Of a stretch of DNA of 39,838 nucleotides, positions 16,785 through 35,868 are shown piece by piece. How positions within the stretch are numbered: the stretch's first letter is position 1; each line of letters starts with the position of its first letter. Position numbers and translations under genes: made by a program. This DNA comes from a bacterium (GTDB taxonomy: Bacteria; Planctomycetota; UBA1135; GCA-002686595): contig JAUIDW010000017.1 in assembly GCA_030428395.1 (NCBI GenBank), positions 1 through 39,838 of the forward strand. Direction: 5' to 3'. Under the pieces are notes generated by a model. The model was not told where the DNA came from and did no database searches. It saw only the letters and a program-made list of their open reading frames with translations.

Positions 16785-17954
16785 GTGCGGCGCGTCTTCC
16801 TGATCGTCCTGGACTCCCTCGGCGTCGGCGAGCTCCCCGACGCGGCGGAGTTCGGCGACCAGGGCAGCCACACGCTGGACCACCTGGTCGCGGCCAGCGG
16901 CGGGCTCGAGGTGCCCCGCCTGGTCGAGCTCGGCCTGGGCTGCGTGCCCGGGGTCGAGTCGCTGCCGTGCCCCGAGCGTCCCCGCGGCGCGTACGGCCGC
17001 TGCGCCGAGCGCTCGCCGGGCAAGGACACGTCGACGGGGCACTGGGAGATGATGGGGGTGCCGCTCGACCGGCAGTTCCCCGTGTATCCCGACGGGTTCC
17101 CCGACGAGATCGTCGACGAGTTCGTCCGGCGCAGCGGCGTGCCGGGGATCCTCTGCAACGCGCCGGCCTCCGGCACCGAGGTCATCGCGCGCCTGGGCGA
17201 CGAGCACGTCGCCACCGGCCGGCCGATCGTGTACACGAGCGCCGACAGCGTGTTCCAGGTCGCCGCGCACGAGACGCACTTCGGCCTCGACCGGCTGTAC
17301 GACGTCTGCGCCGTCGCGCGCGAGATCCTCGTGCCGTACGGGGTCGGTCGCGTGATCGCGCGGCCCTTCGTGGGCGAGCCGGGCGCGTACGAGCGCACGT
17401 ACAACCGCCGCGACTACTCGCTGGACCCGCCGCGCGAGACGGTGCTCGACCAGCTCGAGGCCGCGGGCGTGCCCGTCGTGGGCGTCGGCAAGATCGAGGA
17501 CATCTTCGCCGGGCGCGGGGTCACGCGCGCGATCCACACCGAGGGCAACCGCGACGGCATGGCGCGGACCGTCGCCTGCGCGCGCGAGCTCGACGGCGGC
17601 TTCGTGTTCGTCAACCTGGTCGACTTCGACATGCTTTACGGGCACCGGCGCGACGCCGCCGGCTACGCCCGCGCGCTCGAGGAGTTCGACGTCGCCCTGG
17701 GCGAGCTCGAGCGCGAGCTGCGGCCCGGCGACCTGGTGATCCTGTCGGCCGACCACGGCAACGACCCGACCAACACCGAGACGACCGACCACACCCGCGA
17801 GTACGTCCCGGTGCTCGTCGAGGGCCCGGACGTGCGCGGCGGCGTCGACCTGGGCACCCGCGAGACGTTCGCGGACATCGGCGCCACGGTCGCGGACGCG
17901 TTCGGGCTGGAGCCGTCCGGGATCGGCCGCTCGTTCCTCCCCGAGCTGCGCTAG
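16785..17954 (+). CDS. deoB: Phosphopentomutase
   Basis: Interconverts (deoxy)ribose-1-phosphate and (deoxy)ribose-5-phosphate in nucleoside breakdown. At 389 residues it is near the length of the Bacillus-type enzymes. Motifs of the alkaline-phosphatase superfamily are intact: IVLDSLGVGELPDA with metal ligand Asp10, SPGKDTSTGHWEMMG with the phospho-accepting Thr (Thr82 by position), SADSVFQVAAHE, and LSADHGNDPTNTETTDHTRE with the second metal site. The start is GTG, with GAGGG just upstream overlapping the end of the small acidic gene. The thymidine phosphorylase gene follows after 8 nt, a classic catabolic pair. Confidence 0.96.
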   Translation: MRRVFLIVLDSLGVGELPDAAEFGDQGSHTLDHLVAASGGLEVPRLVELGLGCVPGVESLPCPERPRGAYGRCAERSPGKDTSTGHWEMMGVPLDRQFPVYPDGFPDEIVDEFVRRSGVPGILCNAPASGTEVIARLGDEHVATGRPIVYTSADSVFQVAAHETHFGLDRLYDVCAVAREILVPYGVGRVIARPFVGEPGAYERTYNRRDYSLDPPRETVLDQLEAAGVPVVGVGKIEDIFAGRGVTRAIHTEGNRDGMARTVACARELDGGFVFVNLVDFDMLYGHRRDAAGYARALEEFDVALGELERELRPGDLVILSADHGNDPTNTETTDHTREYVPVLVEGPDVRGGVDLGTRETFADIGATVADAFGLEPSGIGRSFLPELR

Positions 17955-20760: not shown

Positions 20761-21213
20761 ATGCCCGACGACCTCTGGCAGAACCCGCCGCGCTCGGCCG
20801 CGCTCGACGCCTTCGTCGCGATCCTGAAGGCCAACCGGCGCGTGCACGAGGACTTCGTCGAGCTGTTCCGGGCCCACGACCTGAACGAGCCCAAGTACGA
20901 CGTGCTGCGCACGCTCCGCAACGCCGGCCCGGAGGGGCTGCCCTGCGGGCGGATCGGCGCGCGCCTCTACACGCGCGTGCCCGACGTCACGCGGCTGGTG
21001 GACGGGCTCGAGCGCGCCGGCCTCGTCTCCCGCCGGCGCGGCGACTCCGACCGCCGCGTCGTCCGCGTGACCGTGACGCCGAAGGGCCTGCGCCTGCTCC
21101 GGCGGCTCGACCAGCCCGTGATGGACGTCCACGCGCGCCAGTTCCCGGGCTGGACGGACCGCGAGCTGTCGCGGCTCGCCGCGGACCTCGAGCGAATCGC
21201 CGCGCAAACCTGA
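20761..21213 (+). CDS. MarR family transcriptional regulator
   Basis: A 150-residue winged-helix repressor or redox/ligand sensor. The DNA-binding core is EPKYDVLRTLRNAGPEGLPCG, then RIGARLYTRVPDVTRLVDGL (recognition helix) and ERAGLVSRRRGDSDRRVVRV, the MarR wing with its DxR motif. The ATG at 20761 is chosen because GAGGA stands 8 nt upstream; an upstream ATG at 20719 would lie over the palindrome and lacks a ribosome site. Its only cysteine in the core (Cys in GLPCG) leaves thiol sensing possible but unproven. DoxX follows on the same strand and is the likely target. Confidence 0.88.
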   Translation: MPDDLWQNPPRSAALDAFVAILKANRRVHEDFVELFRAHDLNEPKYDVLRTLRNAGPEGLPCGRIGARLYTRVPDVTRLVDGLERAGLVSRRRGDSDRRVVRVTVTPKGLRLLRRLDQPVMDVHARQFPGWTDRELSRLAADLERIAAQT

Positions 21214-21225
21214 CCGACTCCCGGG

Positions 21226-21246
21226 CGCGCGCCCCTCCGGCGCGCG
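21226..21246 (+). terminator. Hairpin between marR and doxX
   Basis: CGCGCGCC and GGCGCGCG form an 8-bp stem around CCTCC, 12 nt past the marR stop. It may attenuate or separate marR from doxX; with no T-run, its effect is uncertain. Confidence 0.35.
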
Positions 21247-21286
21247 GCCCGACCCACGACCCGAACCCCCTCACCGCGAGGCTTCC

Positions 21287-21700
21287 ATGAAAGACCGCAA
21301 CGCTCGCCACGACGTGGCCACCCTGCTCCTGCGCCTGATGCTTGGCGCCGTCTTCGCCTACCACGGCGCCGGCAAGCTCTTCGGCCTGTTCGGCGGCGGC
21401 GGCCTCGAGGCCACCGCCGGCTACATGGAGAGCATCGGCCTGCCGAACGGCACGGTCATGGCCGTGCTCGCCGGCGGGGCGGAGTTCTTCGGGGGCCTCG
21501 CCCTCGTGCTCGGCGTCGCCGTGCCCCTCGCCGCCGTGCCGCTCGTGATCACGATGCTCGTCGCGAGCTTCATGGCCCACTCCGGGTTCGGCGCCCAGAG
21601 CGGCGGCATGGAGTACCCGCTGACGCTCGCCGTCGCGACCGCCGCGCTCGGGCTGCTCGGCGGCGGCCGCTTCGCCCTGACGGGCGGCAAGCGGCGGTGA
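21287..21700 (+). CDS. DoxX family membrane protein
   Basis: A 137-residue protein with four membrane segments, the size of the DoxX family. The typical start VATLLLRLMLGAVFAYHGAGKLFGLFGGGGLEA is followed by LAGGAEFFGGLALVLGV, where the conserved E and GG lie. The biochemical role of DoxX proteins is poorly defined; links to quinone or thiol redox stress are known for some. MarR-DoxX pairs are common, so a stress-induced function is inferred. Its GTGA stop overlaps a GTG that could begin the purine phosphorylase frame, but that start is not favoured. Confidence 0.88.
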   Translation: MKDRNARHDVATLLLRLMLGAVFAYHGAGKLFGLFGGGGLEATAGYMESIGLPNGTVMAVLAGGAEFFGGLALVLGVAVPLAAVPLVITMLVASFMAHSGFGAQSGGMEYPLTLAVATAALGLLGGGRFALTGGKRR

Positions 21701-32732: not shown

Positions 32733-33554
32733 ATGGCCGAGGACCTCCGAGATCTCGCGCGCCGGGTCGTGGGCCGGGTGCTCGCGGAGCGCGGTGCAGC
32801 GGGCGGCGAGCACCGCGCCGGCGTGTTCGTCCGCGTCGCGCGCGCGGACGCCACCGACCGGCCCGCCGACGCGGCGCCGGGTCCCGCGGCGAGCGCCGGG
32901 TCGCCCGGGAAGGGCCGGCCGCTGGTGACCGCCGAGTGCCTCGAGCGCGTCCCCGACGGCGGCGCGCTGGACGTGGCGCCCGACGCGCTGGTGACGCCGC
33001 TCGCCCGCGAGGAGGCCGAGCGCCGCGGCATCCGCCTGGGCCCGGGCGCGTCGCGCGCCGGTTCCGGTATCGCCGAGGGCGGTCGCCTGCGCGTCGCGGT
33101 CGGCTGCGACCACGGCGGCTACGCCCTGAAGCTCGACGTCGTCGCGTGGGTCCGCGAGCTCGGGCACGAGGCGCTGGACCTCGGCACGCACGACGAGAAC
33201 CCCGTCGACTACCCCGACTACGCGCGCGCCGTGGCCGAGACCGTCGCGGCGGGGCGCTGCGACCTCGGGGTGTGCGTGGACGGCGCCGGCATCGGCTCGG
33301 CGATGGCCGCGAACAAGGTGCCCGGCGTGCGCGCGGCGAACGCCTGGGACACCGCCGGCGCGCGCAACGCGCGCGAGCACAACTACGCGAACGTCCTCAC
33401 GCTCGGCGGCCGCAGCCTGGGGCGCGACGCCGCCTTCGAGGTGCTGCGGACGTTCCTCTCGACCCCCGAGGGGCCCGAGCGCCACGCGCGCCGCGTCGCC
33501 AAGATCACCGCCATCGAGCAGGCCTACTCGCGCGGCTCCGCCGCCCGCCTCTGA
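32733..33554 (+). CDS. RpiB/LacAB-family sugar-phosphate isomerase with microcompartment-type N-terminal extension
   Basis: Residues about 119-265 are an RpiB core, predicted to interconvert ribose- and ribulose-5-phosphate or a similar pair: VAVGCDHGGYALK, NPVDYPDYARAVAE, ANKVPGVRAANAW and NAREHNYANVLTLGGR. The catalytic Cys of classical RpiB (CGTGIG) is Asp183 here (CVDGAGIG). Before the core is a 118-residue extension in three parts. They are an amphipathic helix (DLRDLARRVVGRVLAER, 4-20), an Ala/Pro/Gly-rich linker (about 40-62), and a small module (LVTAECLERV to LVTPLAREEAERRGIRL, 64-102) that I recognise from other microcompartment-associated proteins. The helix plus linker looks like an encapsulation peptide. 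DeoC follows after 4 nt. RpiB with DeoC is the hallmark pair of SPU-type microcompartment loci. Confidence 0.88.
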   Translation: MAEDLRDLARRVVGRVLAERGAAGGEHRAGVFVRVARADATDRPADAAPGPAASAGSPGKGRPLVTAECLERVPDGGALDVAPDALVTPLAREEAERRGIRLGPGASRAGSGIAEGGRLRVAVGCDHGGYALKLDVVAWVRELGHEALDLGTHDENPVDYPDYARAVAETVAAGRCDLGVCVDGAGIGSAMAANKVPGVRAANAWDTAGARNAREHNYANVLTLGGRSLGRDAAFEVLRTFLSTPEGPERHARRVAKITAIEQAYSRGSAARL

Positions 33555-33558
33555 ACCC

Positions 33559-34455
33559 ATGGACTTCACCCGCACCGACGGCTCGGTCGACGCCGGGCAG
33601 CTCGAGGCCGTCCTGGCCGAGATCGCGCGCCAGATCCTGGACCACGGCCTGGGGTCGGTGGGCTCGATGGGCCAGTGGGGCTGCACGTCGATCCAGGTCG
33701 AGTTCTGCCCCGACCGCGCGCGCCAGGTCATCGACGCCGGCGCCTGCCGCCTGGGGGTCTGCACCAACGACGCGCCGTCGCTGGCGAACCTGGCGGGCTA
33801 CATCGACCACACGCTGCTGAAGCCCGACGCGACACTGGCGGACGTCGACGAGCTGTGCGGCCAGGCGCTGAAGCACGACTTCGCCTCGGTGTGCGTCAAC
33901 GGCGTGCACGTGCGGCGCTGCGCCGAGATCCTGGCCGGCTCGTGCACCCGGGTCTGCACCGTCGTGGGCTTCCCGCTGGGCGCCTGCGCGCCCGAGGTGA
34001 AGGTCTACGAGGCGCGCCGCGCGATCGAGGACGGCGCCTGCGAGATCGACATGGTCATGAACGTCGGCGTGCACAAGTCCGGCGACGTCGAGTTCACGCG
34101 CCGCGACATCGCGGGCGTGGCGGAGACCTGCCACCGGCTCGGCGCGAAGCTGAAGGTGATCCTGGAGACGGCGCTGCTGACCGACGCCGAGAAGATCAGC
34201 GCCTGCGAGGCCGCCGTGGCGGCCGGCGCCGACTTCGTGAAGACCTCGACGGGCTTCTCGAAGGGGGGCGCGACCGTCCACGACGTCGAGCTGATGCGCC
34301 GCACGGTCGGTCCGACCCTGGGCGTGAAGGCGTCGGGCGGCATCCGCGACACCGAGACGGCGCGGGCGATGATCACCGCCGGCGCCACGCGCCTGGGGGC
34401 CTCGGCCTCGGTCGAGATCGTGTCCGGCCAGGCCGCGAAGTCAGGCGGCTACTAG
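33559..34455 (+). CDS. deoC: Deoxyribose-phosphate aldolase (DeoC) with an N-terminal extension
   Basis: Cleaves 2-deoxyribose-5-phosphate to glyceraldehyde-3-phosphate and acetaldehyde. The class I aldolase barrel spans about residues 79-290: YIDHTLLKPDAT, VVGFPLGA, EIDMVMNVG (Asp164), DFVKTSTGFSKGGAT (Schiff-base Lys228) and LGVKASGGIRD (Lys257). At 298 residues it is about 75 longer than usual. The extension begins with an amphipathic helix (QLEAVLAEIARQILDHGL, 14-31) like an encapsulation peptide. It continues with a cysteine-rich segment (Cys42, 50, 63, 68) before the barrel. It is coupled to the RpiB-like gene. Acetaldehyde is volatile and toxic, which fits enclosure in a microcompartment, but no shell gene is visible. 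Confidence 0.93.
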   Translation: MDFTRTDGSVDAGQLEAVLAEIARQILDHGLGSVGSMGQWGCTSIQVEFCPDRARQVIDAGACRLGVCTNDAPSLANLAGYIDHTLLKPDATLADVDELCGQALKHDFASVCVNGVHVRRCAEILAGSCTRVCTVVGFPLGACAPEVKVYEARRAIEDGACEIDMVMNVGVHKSGDVEFTRRDIAGVAETCHRLGAKLKVILETALLTDAEKISACEAAVAAGADFVKTSTGFSKGGATVHDVELMRRTVGPTLGVKASGGIRDTETARAMITAGATRLGASASVEIVSGQAAKSGGY

Positions 34456-34504: not shown

Positions 34505-35170
34505 TCAGAAGTCGCCGTCGCGCACGTACGGGCGGCTCCACAGGATCACCTGGAGCAGCACCGCCTTGCTCCACGCCGCGTGCATCGCGCGCACCTCCTC
34601 CGGGGAGGCGTCGCCCGCCGCCAGGAACGGCTCGAGGGTGATCGTGATCGGCGAGTGCAGCGCCACGAGGTAGCGGAAGGCGACCTGGTCGGAGGCGTCC
34701 GCGCCGTCGGTCGCGTTCTTGCGCGTGCGGTGGTGGCGCAGCCCGACCTCGTGCTGGTAGTCGAGCCACTCCTGGTCGAAGCGCGCGTCCGCCGTGTCGA
34801 GGATCCACTGCCCGAAGCGCGCGCGCACGCGGGCGAGGTAGCGCGCGTCGGGCTCTCCCTCGGCGTTCGAGAACGACGCGAGCAGGTGCGGGTTGGCGCC
34901 CACGAAGCCGTACCAGGTGTCGAGGATCTCGTCGACCTGGGGCTCGAGGACCGCGCGCGAGCGGCGCAGCAGGCGCACGTCGTCCTCGGTCAGCAGGACG
35001 GTCTTCTTCAGCAGCTCGAGCTCCTCGAGCGTGACGGGCGACCGCGCGATGGCCGGCGTGCCGCCCTCGGCGTGGTAGCGCGCGTGGTGGTAGCGGCCGT
35101 CCTCCGCGGAGGGGGCCGCGGCGAGGGTCAGCGCCAGCGCGCCGACGACGAGGAGGAGGGGGAGGTGCAT
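34505..35170 (-). CDS. Exported protoglobin-domain heme protein
   Basis: A 221-residue protein. Residues about 45-215 match the single-domain protoglobin fold, a globin that binds O2, CO or NO. Features are LTEDDVRLLRRSRAVLEPQV, ILDTWYGFVGANPHLLASF, RFGQWILDTADARFDQEWLD, and YQHEVGLRHHRTRKN, where His146 (G-x-x-H) is the likely proximal heme ligand. FRYLVALHSPITITLEPFL and AWSKAVLLQVILWSRPY follow. Unlike ordinary cytoplasmic protoglobins of about 195 residues, it starts with a signal peptide (LPLLLVVGALALTLAAAPSA), so export is predicted. AGGAG precedes the ATG. It is divergent from a four-Cys MarR gene, with strong inverted repeats between. A gas-sensing or NO-detoxifying role is inferred. 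Confidence 0.85.
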   Translation of the reverse strand: MHLPLLLVVGALALTLAAAPSAEDGRYHHARYHAEGGTPAIARSPVTLEELELLKKTVLLTEDDVRLLRRSRAVLEPQVDEILDTWYGFVGANPHLLASFSNAEGEPDARYLARVRARFGQWILDTADARFDQEWLDYQHEVGLRHHRTRKNATDGADASDQVAFRYLVALHSPITITLEPFLAAGDASPEEVRAMHAAWSKAVLLQVILWSRPYVRDGDF

Positions 35171-35228
35171 GGGTGGGCTCCTGGTCAGGGTCCGTGGGGG
35201 GGGCCGGCCGGGGACCCGGCGCGGCCGT

Positions 35229-35291
35229 AAGTATCGAGTCGAAACTATTGGGCAGCCGCGGGGTTGTCCAGAAGGTTTCGAGGCGATACTT
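35229..35291. promoter_or_regulatory. Long inverted repeat, candidate operator pair for the divergent protoglobin/MarR promoters
   Basis: AAGTATCGAGTCGAAAC (35229-35245) is repeated inverted at 35275-35291, with 15 of 17 positions matching and a 29-nt spacer. The left copy is itself a near-palindrome (AGTaTCGAgTCGAaACT, seven of eight pairs). The right copy ends 7 nt before the GTG of the regulator and would cover its ribosome site. The AT content is clearly above background. Two MarR dimers controlling both genes is the simplest reading. Confidence 0.65.
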
Positions 35292-35298
35292 TTGGGGC

Positions 35299-35868
35299 GT
35301 GCCGGAGCCGAGCGTCTACGAGCTGGTCGAGCGCCTGGGCAACCTGCTGCGCGCCGCCGAGCGCCGGGCCGGGGCCCGCGCGGGCCTGCAGCCCGTGCAC
35401 CTGCACGCGCTGGGCTACGTCGCGCGCTGCAACCGCTACAGCGACTCCCCGGGCGCCCTGCAGGAATACCTGGGGGTCACCAAGGGCACCGCCTCCCAGA
35501 CCGTCACCGTGCTGCAGGAGCGCGGGCTCCTGCGGCGCCGCCGCGACGACGAGGACGCGCGCCGGGTGCACCTGGAGCTGACCGCCAAGGGCCGGCGCCT
35601 GGTGGCGTCCGCGCTGCCGCCGCGGCCGTTCGAGGAGGCGCTGGCCGACCTGCCCGCGGGCGGGCGCGAGCTGCGGGCCCAGCTGATGGGGCTGCTGCGG
35701 GGGCTCCAGCGCTCCGGCGGCGTCCCCTCGTTCGGCGTCTGCCGCACGTGCGCGCACTTCCGGCGCGAGGCGGGCGGGTTCCGCTGCGGGCTCACGGGCG
35801 AGCCCCTGGAGCGGGACGAGACCGCGCTCATCTGCCGCGAGCACTCCCCCGTCGAGACCGGGGACTGA
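35299..35868 (+). CDS. MarR family regulator with a C-terminal four-cysteine motif
   Basis: A 189-residue winged-helix regulator. The DNA-binding part reads ALQEYLGVTKGTASQTVTVL and QERGLLRRRRDDEDARRVHL. After a helical dimer region, residues 148-179 hold CRTC, FRCG and LICREH: Cys148, 151, 163 and 179 (C-x2-C-x11-C-x15-C). This spacing suits a bound zinc or iron-sulfur cluster and is absent from plain MarR proteins. The start is GTG at 35299, giving MPEPSVYELVERL; the frame is open further upstream, but that would translate the operator region. It is divergent from the protoglobin, so a redox- or gas-responsive repressor is likely. The ligand is not determinable by reading. Confidence 0.85.
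   Translation: MPEPSVYELVERLGNLLRAAERRAGARAGLQPVHLHALGYVARCNRYSDSPGALQEYLGVTKGTASQTVTVLQERGLLRRRRDDEDARRVHLELTAKGRRLVASALPPRPFEEALADLPAGGRELRAQLMGLLRGLQRSGGVPSFGVCRTCAHFRREAGGFRCGLTGEPLERDETALICREHSPVETGD

Follow-up and report, generated by a model that had tools for sequence, protein, structure and literature searches.

SufR carries a set of cysteines toward its C-terminus. It is a winged-helix repressor with a [4Fe-4S] cluster, as is ArnR of Corynebacterium glutamicum, which controls flavohemoglobin, has hmp and narKGHJI as its targets, and loses DNA binding in the presence of NO; the conserved cysteines of ArnR are residues 179, 193, and 223, and the protein is found almost only in Actinobacteria (PMC12343034). 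The globin gene hmp is likewise the principal target of NsrR, also an Fe-S repressor, as summarized in the same paper (PMC12343034). In vitro, the protoglobin of M. acetivorans (Ma-Pgb) isomerizes peroxynitrite and reduces nitrite (PMC4020757); its biological role is termed still unknown (PMC3680402).

Gene content of the locus

The DNA analyzed is a 39,838-nucleotide planctomycete contig (JAUIDW010000017.1); we refer to this whole stretch as the window. It contains a protoglobin gene and, facing away from it, the gene of a MarR-family regulator with four C-terminal cysteines. A globin and a regulator of these kinds form a conserved genetic switch, probably self-contained, in many unrelated bacteria, and the switch resembles a circuit that answers stress gases or redox changes. 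The features of the window copy are as follows.

34505–35170, minus strand: protoglobin gene, 221 amino acids (Pfam PF11563 and homology to Ma-Pgb)
35111–35170, minus strand: putative signal peptide of the globin, about the first 20 codons, MHLPLLLVVGALALTLAAAP (hydrophobic N-terminus)
35178–35182, minus strand: AGGAG, Shine-Dalgarno-like sequence of the globin, with the ATG 7 nt on (read from the sequence)
35230–35246, no strand assigned: operator-like palindrome 1, AGTATCGAGTCGAAACT, 1 mismatch to AGTATCGANTCGATACT (motif search)
35264–35292, plus strand: putative marR promoter TTGTCC-N17-TACTTT, enclosing operator 2 (layout repeated in other type-A loci)
35274–35290, no strand assigned: operator-like palindrome 2, GGTTTCGAGGCGATACT, 3 mismatches to AGTATCGANTCGATACT (motif search)
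35299–35868, plus strand: four-cysteine MarR regulator of type A, 189 amino acids (MarR_2 match and homology to type-A relatives)
35740–35835, plus strand: codons of the C-terminal motif C148-x2-C151-x11-C163-x15-C179 (alignment of homologues)

The divergent arrangement around a common 128-bp region, as first described for this DNA, was confirmed, the gap being positions 35171–35298; the marR start was set at the GTG at 35299 from homology and operator spacing. Elsewhere in the window, positions 32733–34455 encode adjacent RpiB-like and DeoC proteins, both with N-terminal extensions, and the ORFs at 16785 and 21697 resemble, by eye, phosphopentomutase and purine nucleoside phosphorylase; the window may therefore hold a nucleoside-catabolism region.

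The protoglobin

The heme globin of the original prediction belongs to the Protoglobin family by profile, scoring 110 bits against PF11563 (cut-off 25) over profile positions 3–156 of 158, and it matches the M. acetivorans protein (MaPgb, 2veb) at E = 5e-66. The heme pocket is intact: His146, corresponding to MaPgb His120, is the proximal histidine, and Trp86, Tyr87, and Phe119 line the distal side, so that His F8, Trp B9, Tyr B10, and Phe E11 are all in place. The equivalents of MaPgb W60, Y61, F93, and H120 are invariant across the 29 globin homologues.

An exported globin had also been proposed. This is supported for the window copy, in which a hydrophobic 12-mer near the N-terminus has a mean of 2.81, and for ten relatives whose N-termini are likewise hydrophobic, often with a lipobox, but not for the remaining members, which begin directly at the domain; these calls come from simple hydrophobicity and motif rules rather than a dedicated signal-peptide predictor. 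We know of no described case of an exported protoglobin, and a literature search on protoglobin with signal peptide returned none describing one, as judged from titles and the opening parts of abstracts. The system would define such an exported form.

The four-cysteine regulator

The regulator scores 54.9 bits against MarR_2 (cut-off 27) and 30.4 bits against MarR (cut-off 24.6); its closest structural matches are MarR proteins, with HosA among the nearest in the PDB, and it is 48–60% identical to the type-A relatives of loci L005, L006, L007, and L008. The cysteine motif follows the winged helix and has the spacing originally reported, C-x2-C-x11-C-x15-C. Free variation of these residues would have spoken against the original prediction. 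None of the four varies among the homologues, drawn from several phyla, whose C-terminus is complete (44 of 44), a figure that is slightly favored because a few members of this set, otherwise gathered by homology, were picked for the motif. The mean top-residue frequency in well-filled columns of the same 44-sequence alignment is 0.47, and the last cysteine spacing is 15 wherever it was measured. Those members are L046 and the Myxococcota entries, which were read off a motif listing consistent with the profile hits.

Among the 13 MarR_2 matches of the genome, only the window regulator was seen to have the motif within the regulator itself; occurrences of a looser cysteine pattern elsewhere in the genome looked like other reading frames. 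A second MarR_2 match in the window (20875–21700, 37.7 bits) is situated immediately upstream of what appears, by eye, to be a DoxX-like ORF.

Searches of Pfam and the PDB with the cysteine region gave no convincing or relevant match to the C-terminal domain. A HiPIP-like domain was considered but found no support, since Pfam gave no HiPIP match up to E = 10 and a 26-sequence profile had no match in the PDB; no SufR model occurs among the NCBIfam matches of the regulator listed up to E = 0.1. Structure prediction from three sequences gave a low-confidence C-terminal domain (block pLDDT 35–53).

The four cysteines would also fit a thiol switch or zinc in a structural role. With structural zinc, the Cys4 domain would only stabilize the protein, a small-molecule effector would occupy the usual MarR pocket, and what the globin answers would be a metabolite, not a gas or a redox change. 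The motif alone allows zinc, and small aromatic acids are bound by many MarR proteins, HosA being an example, but the redox and reactive-nitrogen theme among neighboring genes in several phyla, described below, would then go unexplained, and we regard this account as improbable. The system would also define a large, uncharacterized branch of the MarR family.

Conserved pairing and regulator subtypes

Globin searches covering 61 relatives, together with 294 genomes from the window's phylum and 237 from Myxococcota, yielded 24 distinct loci in Planctomycetota and Myxococcota, and the globin adjoins a MarR gene of the four-cysteine kind at 22 of them. These loci were selected by globin, and their regulators by MarR homology and not by the cysteine motif, except for L046, whose type-B regulator was missed at the BLAST cut-off and recognized by eye. 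The two unpaired loci are L052, where the match to the globin is partial, and L077, whose globin is the second of its genome, the other one being paired. Of the paired regulators, the 21 whose C-terminus is complete all have the four cysteines; the 22nd (L038) extends past the end of its contig. The original prediction had staked itself on a neighborhood conserved in relatives, and that neighborhood recurs.

Beyond the two phyla, a divergent pair of the same kind is carried by a plasmid of Agarilytica rhodophyticola, and a Hymenobacter plasmid has a gene run of globin, DUF2024, a small gene, and a four-cysteine MarR, with HTHP and catalase upstream. The protoglobins of Acaryochloris, Cupriavidus, and Halalkalicoccus have no such pairing. 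Two regulator subtypes occur: type A, to which the window regulator belongs, is transcribed away from the globin at every paired locus, and type B precedes the globin co-directionally and in many cases overlaps its start. A quick FastTree run gave a globin tree that is not sorted by regulator subtype, which suggests that regulators were exchanged while the four-cysteine property was retained.

Operators and putative promoter

Palindromes resembling AGTATCGANTCGATACT were found in all 14 type-A upstream regions examined, the loci spanning Planctomycetota, Myxococcota, and Alpha- and Gammaproteobacteria. The better copy in each region has 0–2 mismatches to the 13-bp core, a level reached by at most 15 of 2000 first-order Markov resamplings of that region, and in nine of the 14 a core begins exactly 23 nt upstream of the start codon used for marR. 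The type-B operator differs, with TTAGGANTCCTAA near the start of most type-B regulators; at some type-B loci, the sites are degenerate or none is recognizable. As expected of a MarR-type palindromic operator near its own gene, two predicted sites lie in the intergenic region, the window having 2 matches against an expectation of 0.02; together they make a 17-nt inverted repeat, and site 1 is the sole match with one mismatch or fewer in the 5.8-Mb genome.

The exact type-A site occurs in seven of the 294 genomes of the phylum, in three of which it adjoins a type-A regulator; the other four sites have no MarR or globin of this kind at their loci and were taken as chance. The same judgment was made of 74 operator-like matches on viral contigs, whose loci likewise lack both, and no relative of the four-cysteine regulator was found on the viral contigs. 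One of them, IMGVR_UViG_3300013359_000014 (L113, L171, and L173), has a repeated GTATCGANTCGATAC, at ~3-kb intervals in L113, with no such MarR nearby.

Site 2 lies inside the putative marR promoter, which ends 6 nt before the GTG, and at several type-A loci the core falls within TTGTC...TAC at promoter-like spacing. A generic sigma-70 scan of the region found no promoter and gave TTGTCC-N17-TACTTT no score, so the promoter call rests on conservation. From the 6-nt gap and the promoter-like spacing, the marR transcript may start at the start codon (i.e., be leaderless). Overlap of an operator with the putative promoter suggests repression and, together with the uniqueness of site 1 in the genome, points to the regulator as a local autorepressor of the globin gene and marR, its binding to the operators being predicted.

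If the two genes were mere neighbors with no regulatory link, neither the frequency with which they are paired, nor the retention of that pairing in a globin tree unsorted by regulator subtype, nor the conservation across phyla of operators between them would be anticipated, and the chance that this is so seems very slight. A regulatory link is instead very likely, because of the conserved pairing and operator, and the earlier suggestion that the regulator controls the globin can be kept as a very probable one, given a double operator that is conserved and overlaps the putative promoter.

Neighbors of regulators without a globin

Four-cysteine MarR genes without a globin have other neighbors. 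On Enterobacter plasmids, the regulator gene adjoins glutaredoxin and Rho-binding antiterminator (ROF) genes, with DUF2024 in one case, and L029 and L031 have a 78-amino-acid glutaredoxin-like protein (read by eye) beside it. The Nostoc gene adjoins thiol peroxidase (Tpx), thioredoxin, and MOSC genes; one further relative has redoxin, MOSC, Rrf2, and cbb3 as neighbors, another has Trx and redoxin, and MOSC genes lie beside still others. TlpA and NnrS adjoin one such regulator, and cytochrome P460 adjoins that of Thermus. These neighbors, chosen from mixed neighborhoods, favor a redox/reactive-nitrogen theme and pick out no single signal from the NO, O2, or redox state that the original prediction proposed.

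Several recurrent genes were recorded in passing. Matches were obtained in 56 Enterobacter plasmid records; on an Enterobacter hormaechei IncHI2A plasmid, a glutaredoxin-domain gene diverges from the type-A regulator (L075:4001-4564), and the operator palindrome there is perfect. A secreted family of about 240 amino acids with the motif YVWPT/S or YVFPT recurs beside both four-cysteine MarR subtypes (L056:1774-2505, L059:3669-4385, L061:3684-4400, L064:3686-4426, L084:3068-3856, L087:3089-3838, and L088:2732-3499), and Pfam gave no match for the three that were scanned. DUF2024 genes lie near the regulator in Enterobacter (L074:3250-3516), Hymenobacter (L056:3475-3738), and Spirosoma (L088:2427-2687).

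The glutaredoxin, thioredoxin, thiol peroxidase, and redoxin genes would suit a thiol-redox switch, in which the cysteines would react to oxidative, electrophile, or sulfane-sulfur stress by forming disulfides or persulfides or by ejecting zinc, with neither an Fe-S cluster nor specific gas sensing; sulfane sulfur is a signal to which OhrR, MexR, MgrA, and MarR respond (PMC9495516). Four cysteines without exception and a last spacing that is always 15 are, however, better suited to a fixed ligand set, and the protoglobin, NnrS, and P460 neighbors suggest nitrogen oxides. These two arguments do not decide the matter, and a thiol switch is unlikely rather than implausible. With moderate confidence, we favor a metal center, more likely Fe-S, over its main rival, a thiol or zinc switch, because of the redox and nitrogen neighbors, the chemistry of Ma-Pgb, and the ArnR precedent.

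We infer the following course of events for the window locus. A MarR dimer would bind the two palindromes of the divergent 128-bp region and repress both its own gene and that of the protoglobin. The C-terminal domain with its four invariant cysteines would be the signal sensor, most likely holding a metal center, for which Fe-S is likelier than zinc. Modification of that center by NO, reactive nitrogen species, or oxidants would lower DNA affinity, and the globin would be made; being exported in this organism, it would scavenge or convert reactive species. That the pair is a self-contained repressor-target module, in which a metal center at the cysteine site senses NO, reactive nitrogen species, or oxidants and derepresses the globin, is the account we think somewhat better than an even bet. 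More tentatively, and at somewhat less than even odds, four-cysteine MarR proteins may be a widespread, undescribed group of metal-centered (probably Fe-S) redox- or NO-sensing repressors with the operator codes TATCGANTCGATA and TTAGGANTCCTAA, for which protoglobin is a recurrent target, periplasmic or a lipoprotein in several lineages. A dedicated regulator with a defined operator would offer a handle on protoglobin, in that the derepressing signal would reveal what the globin is for.

Comparison with known systems

The window gene is of the same globin family as the M. acetivorans protoglobin and has the same heme pocket, but differs in its signal-like N-terminus and in a Leu that replaces Phe145, as it does in 25 of the 29 homologues. 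NsrR is a member of the Rrf2 family, whereas the window regulator is a MarR protein. The original prediction knew of no characterized system with this combination; searches of a literature collection on protoglobin with MarR, on protoglobin gene neighborhoods, and on MarR with globin and nitrosative stress found nothing relevant in it, but ArnR/hmp (PMC12343034) is a clear precedent in function, and the closest. Compared by description, both regulators are winged-helix repressors of MarR/ArsR-like type (repression being predicted here) with a C-terminal cysteine-containing sensory domain and a globin gene as target. In place of the three cysteines of ArnR (179, 193, and 223), the window regulator has four (C148, C151, C163, and C179) at another spacing, its predicted target is a protoglobin, and its relatives are found in other phyla.
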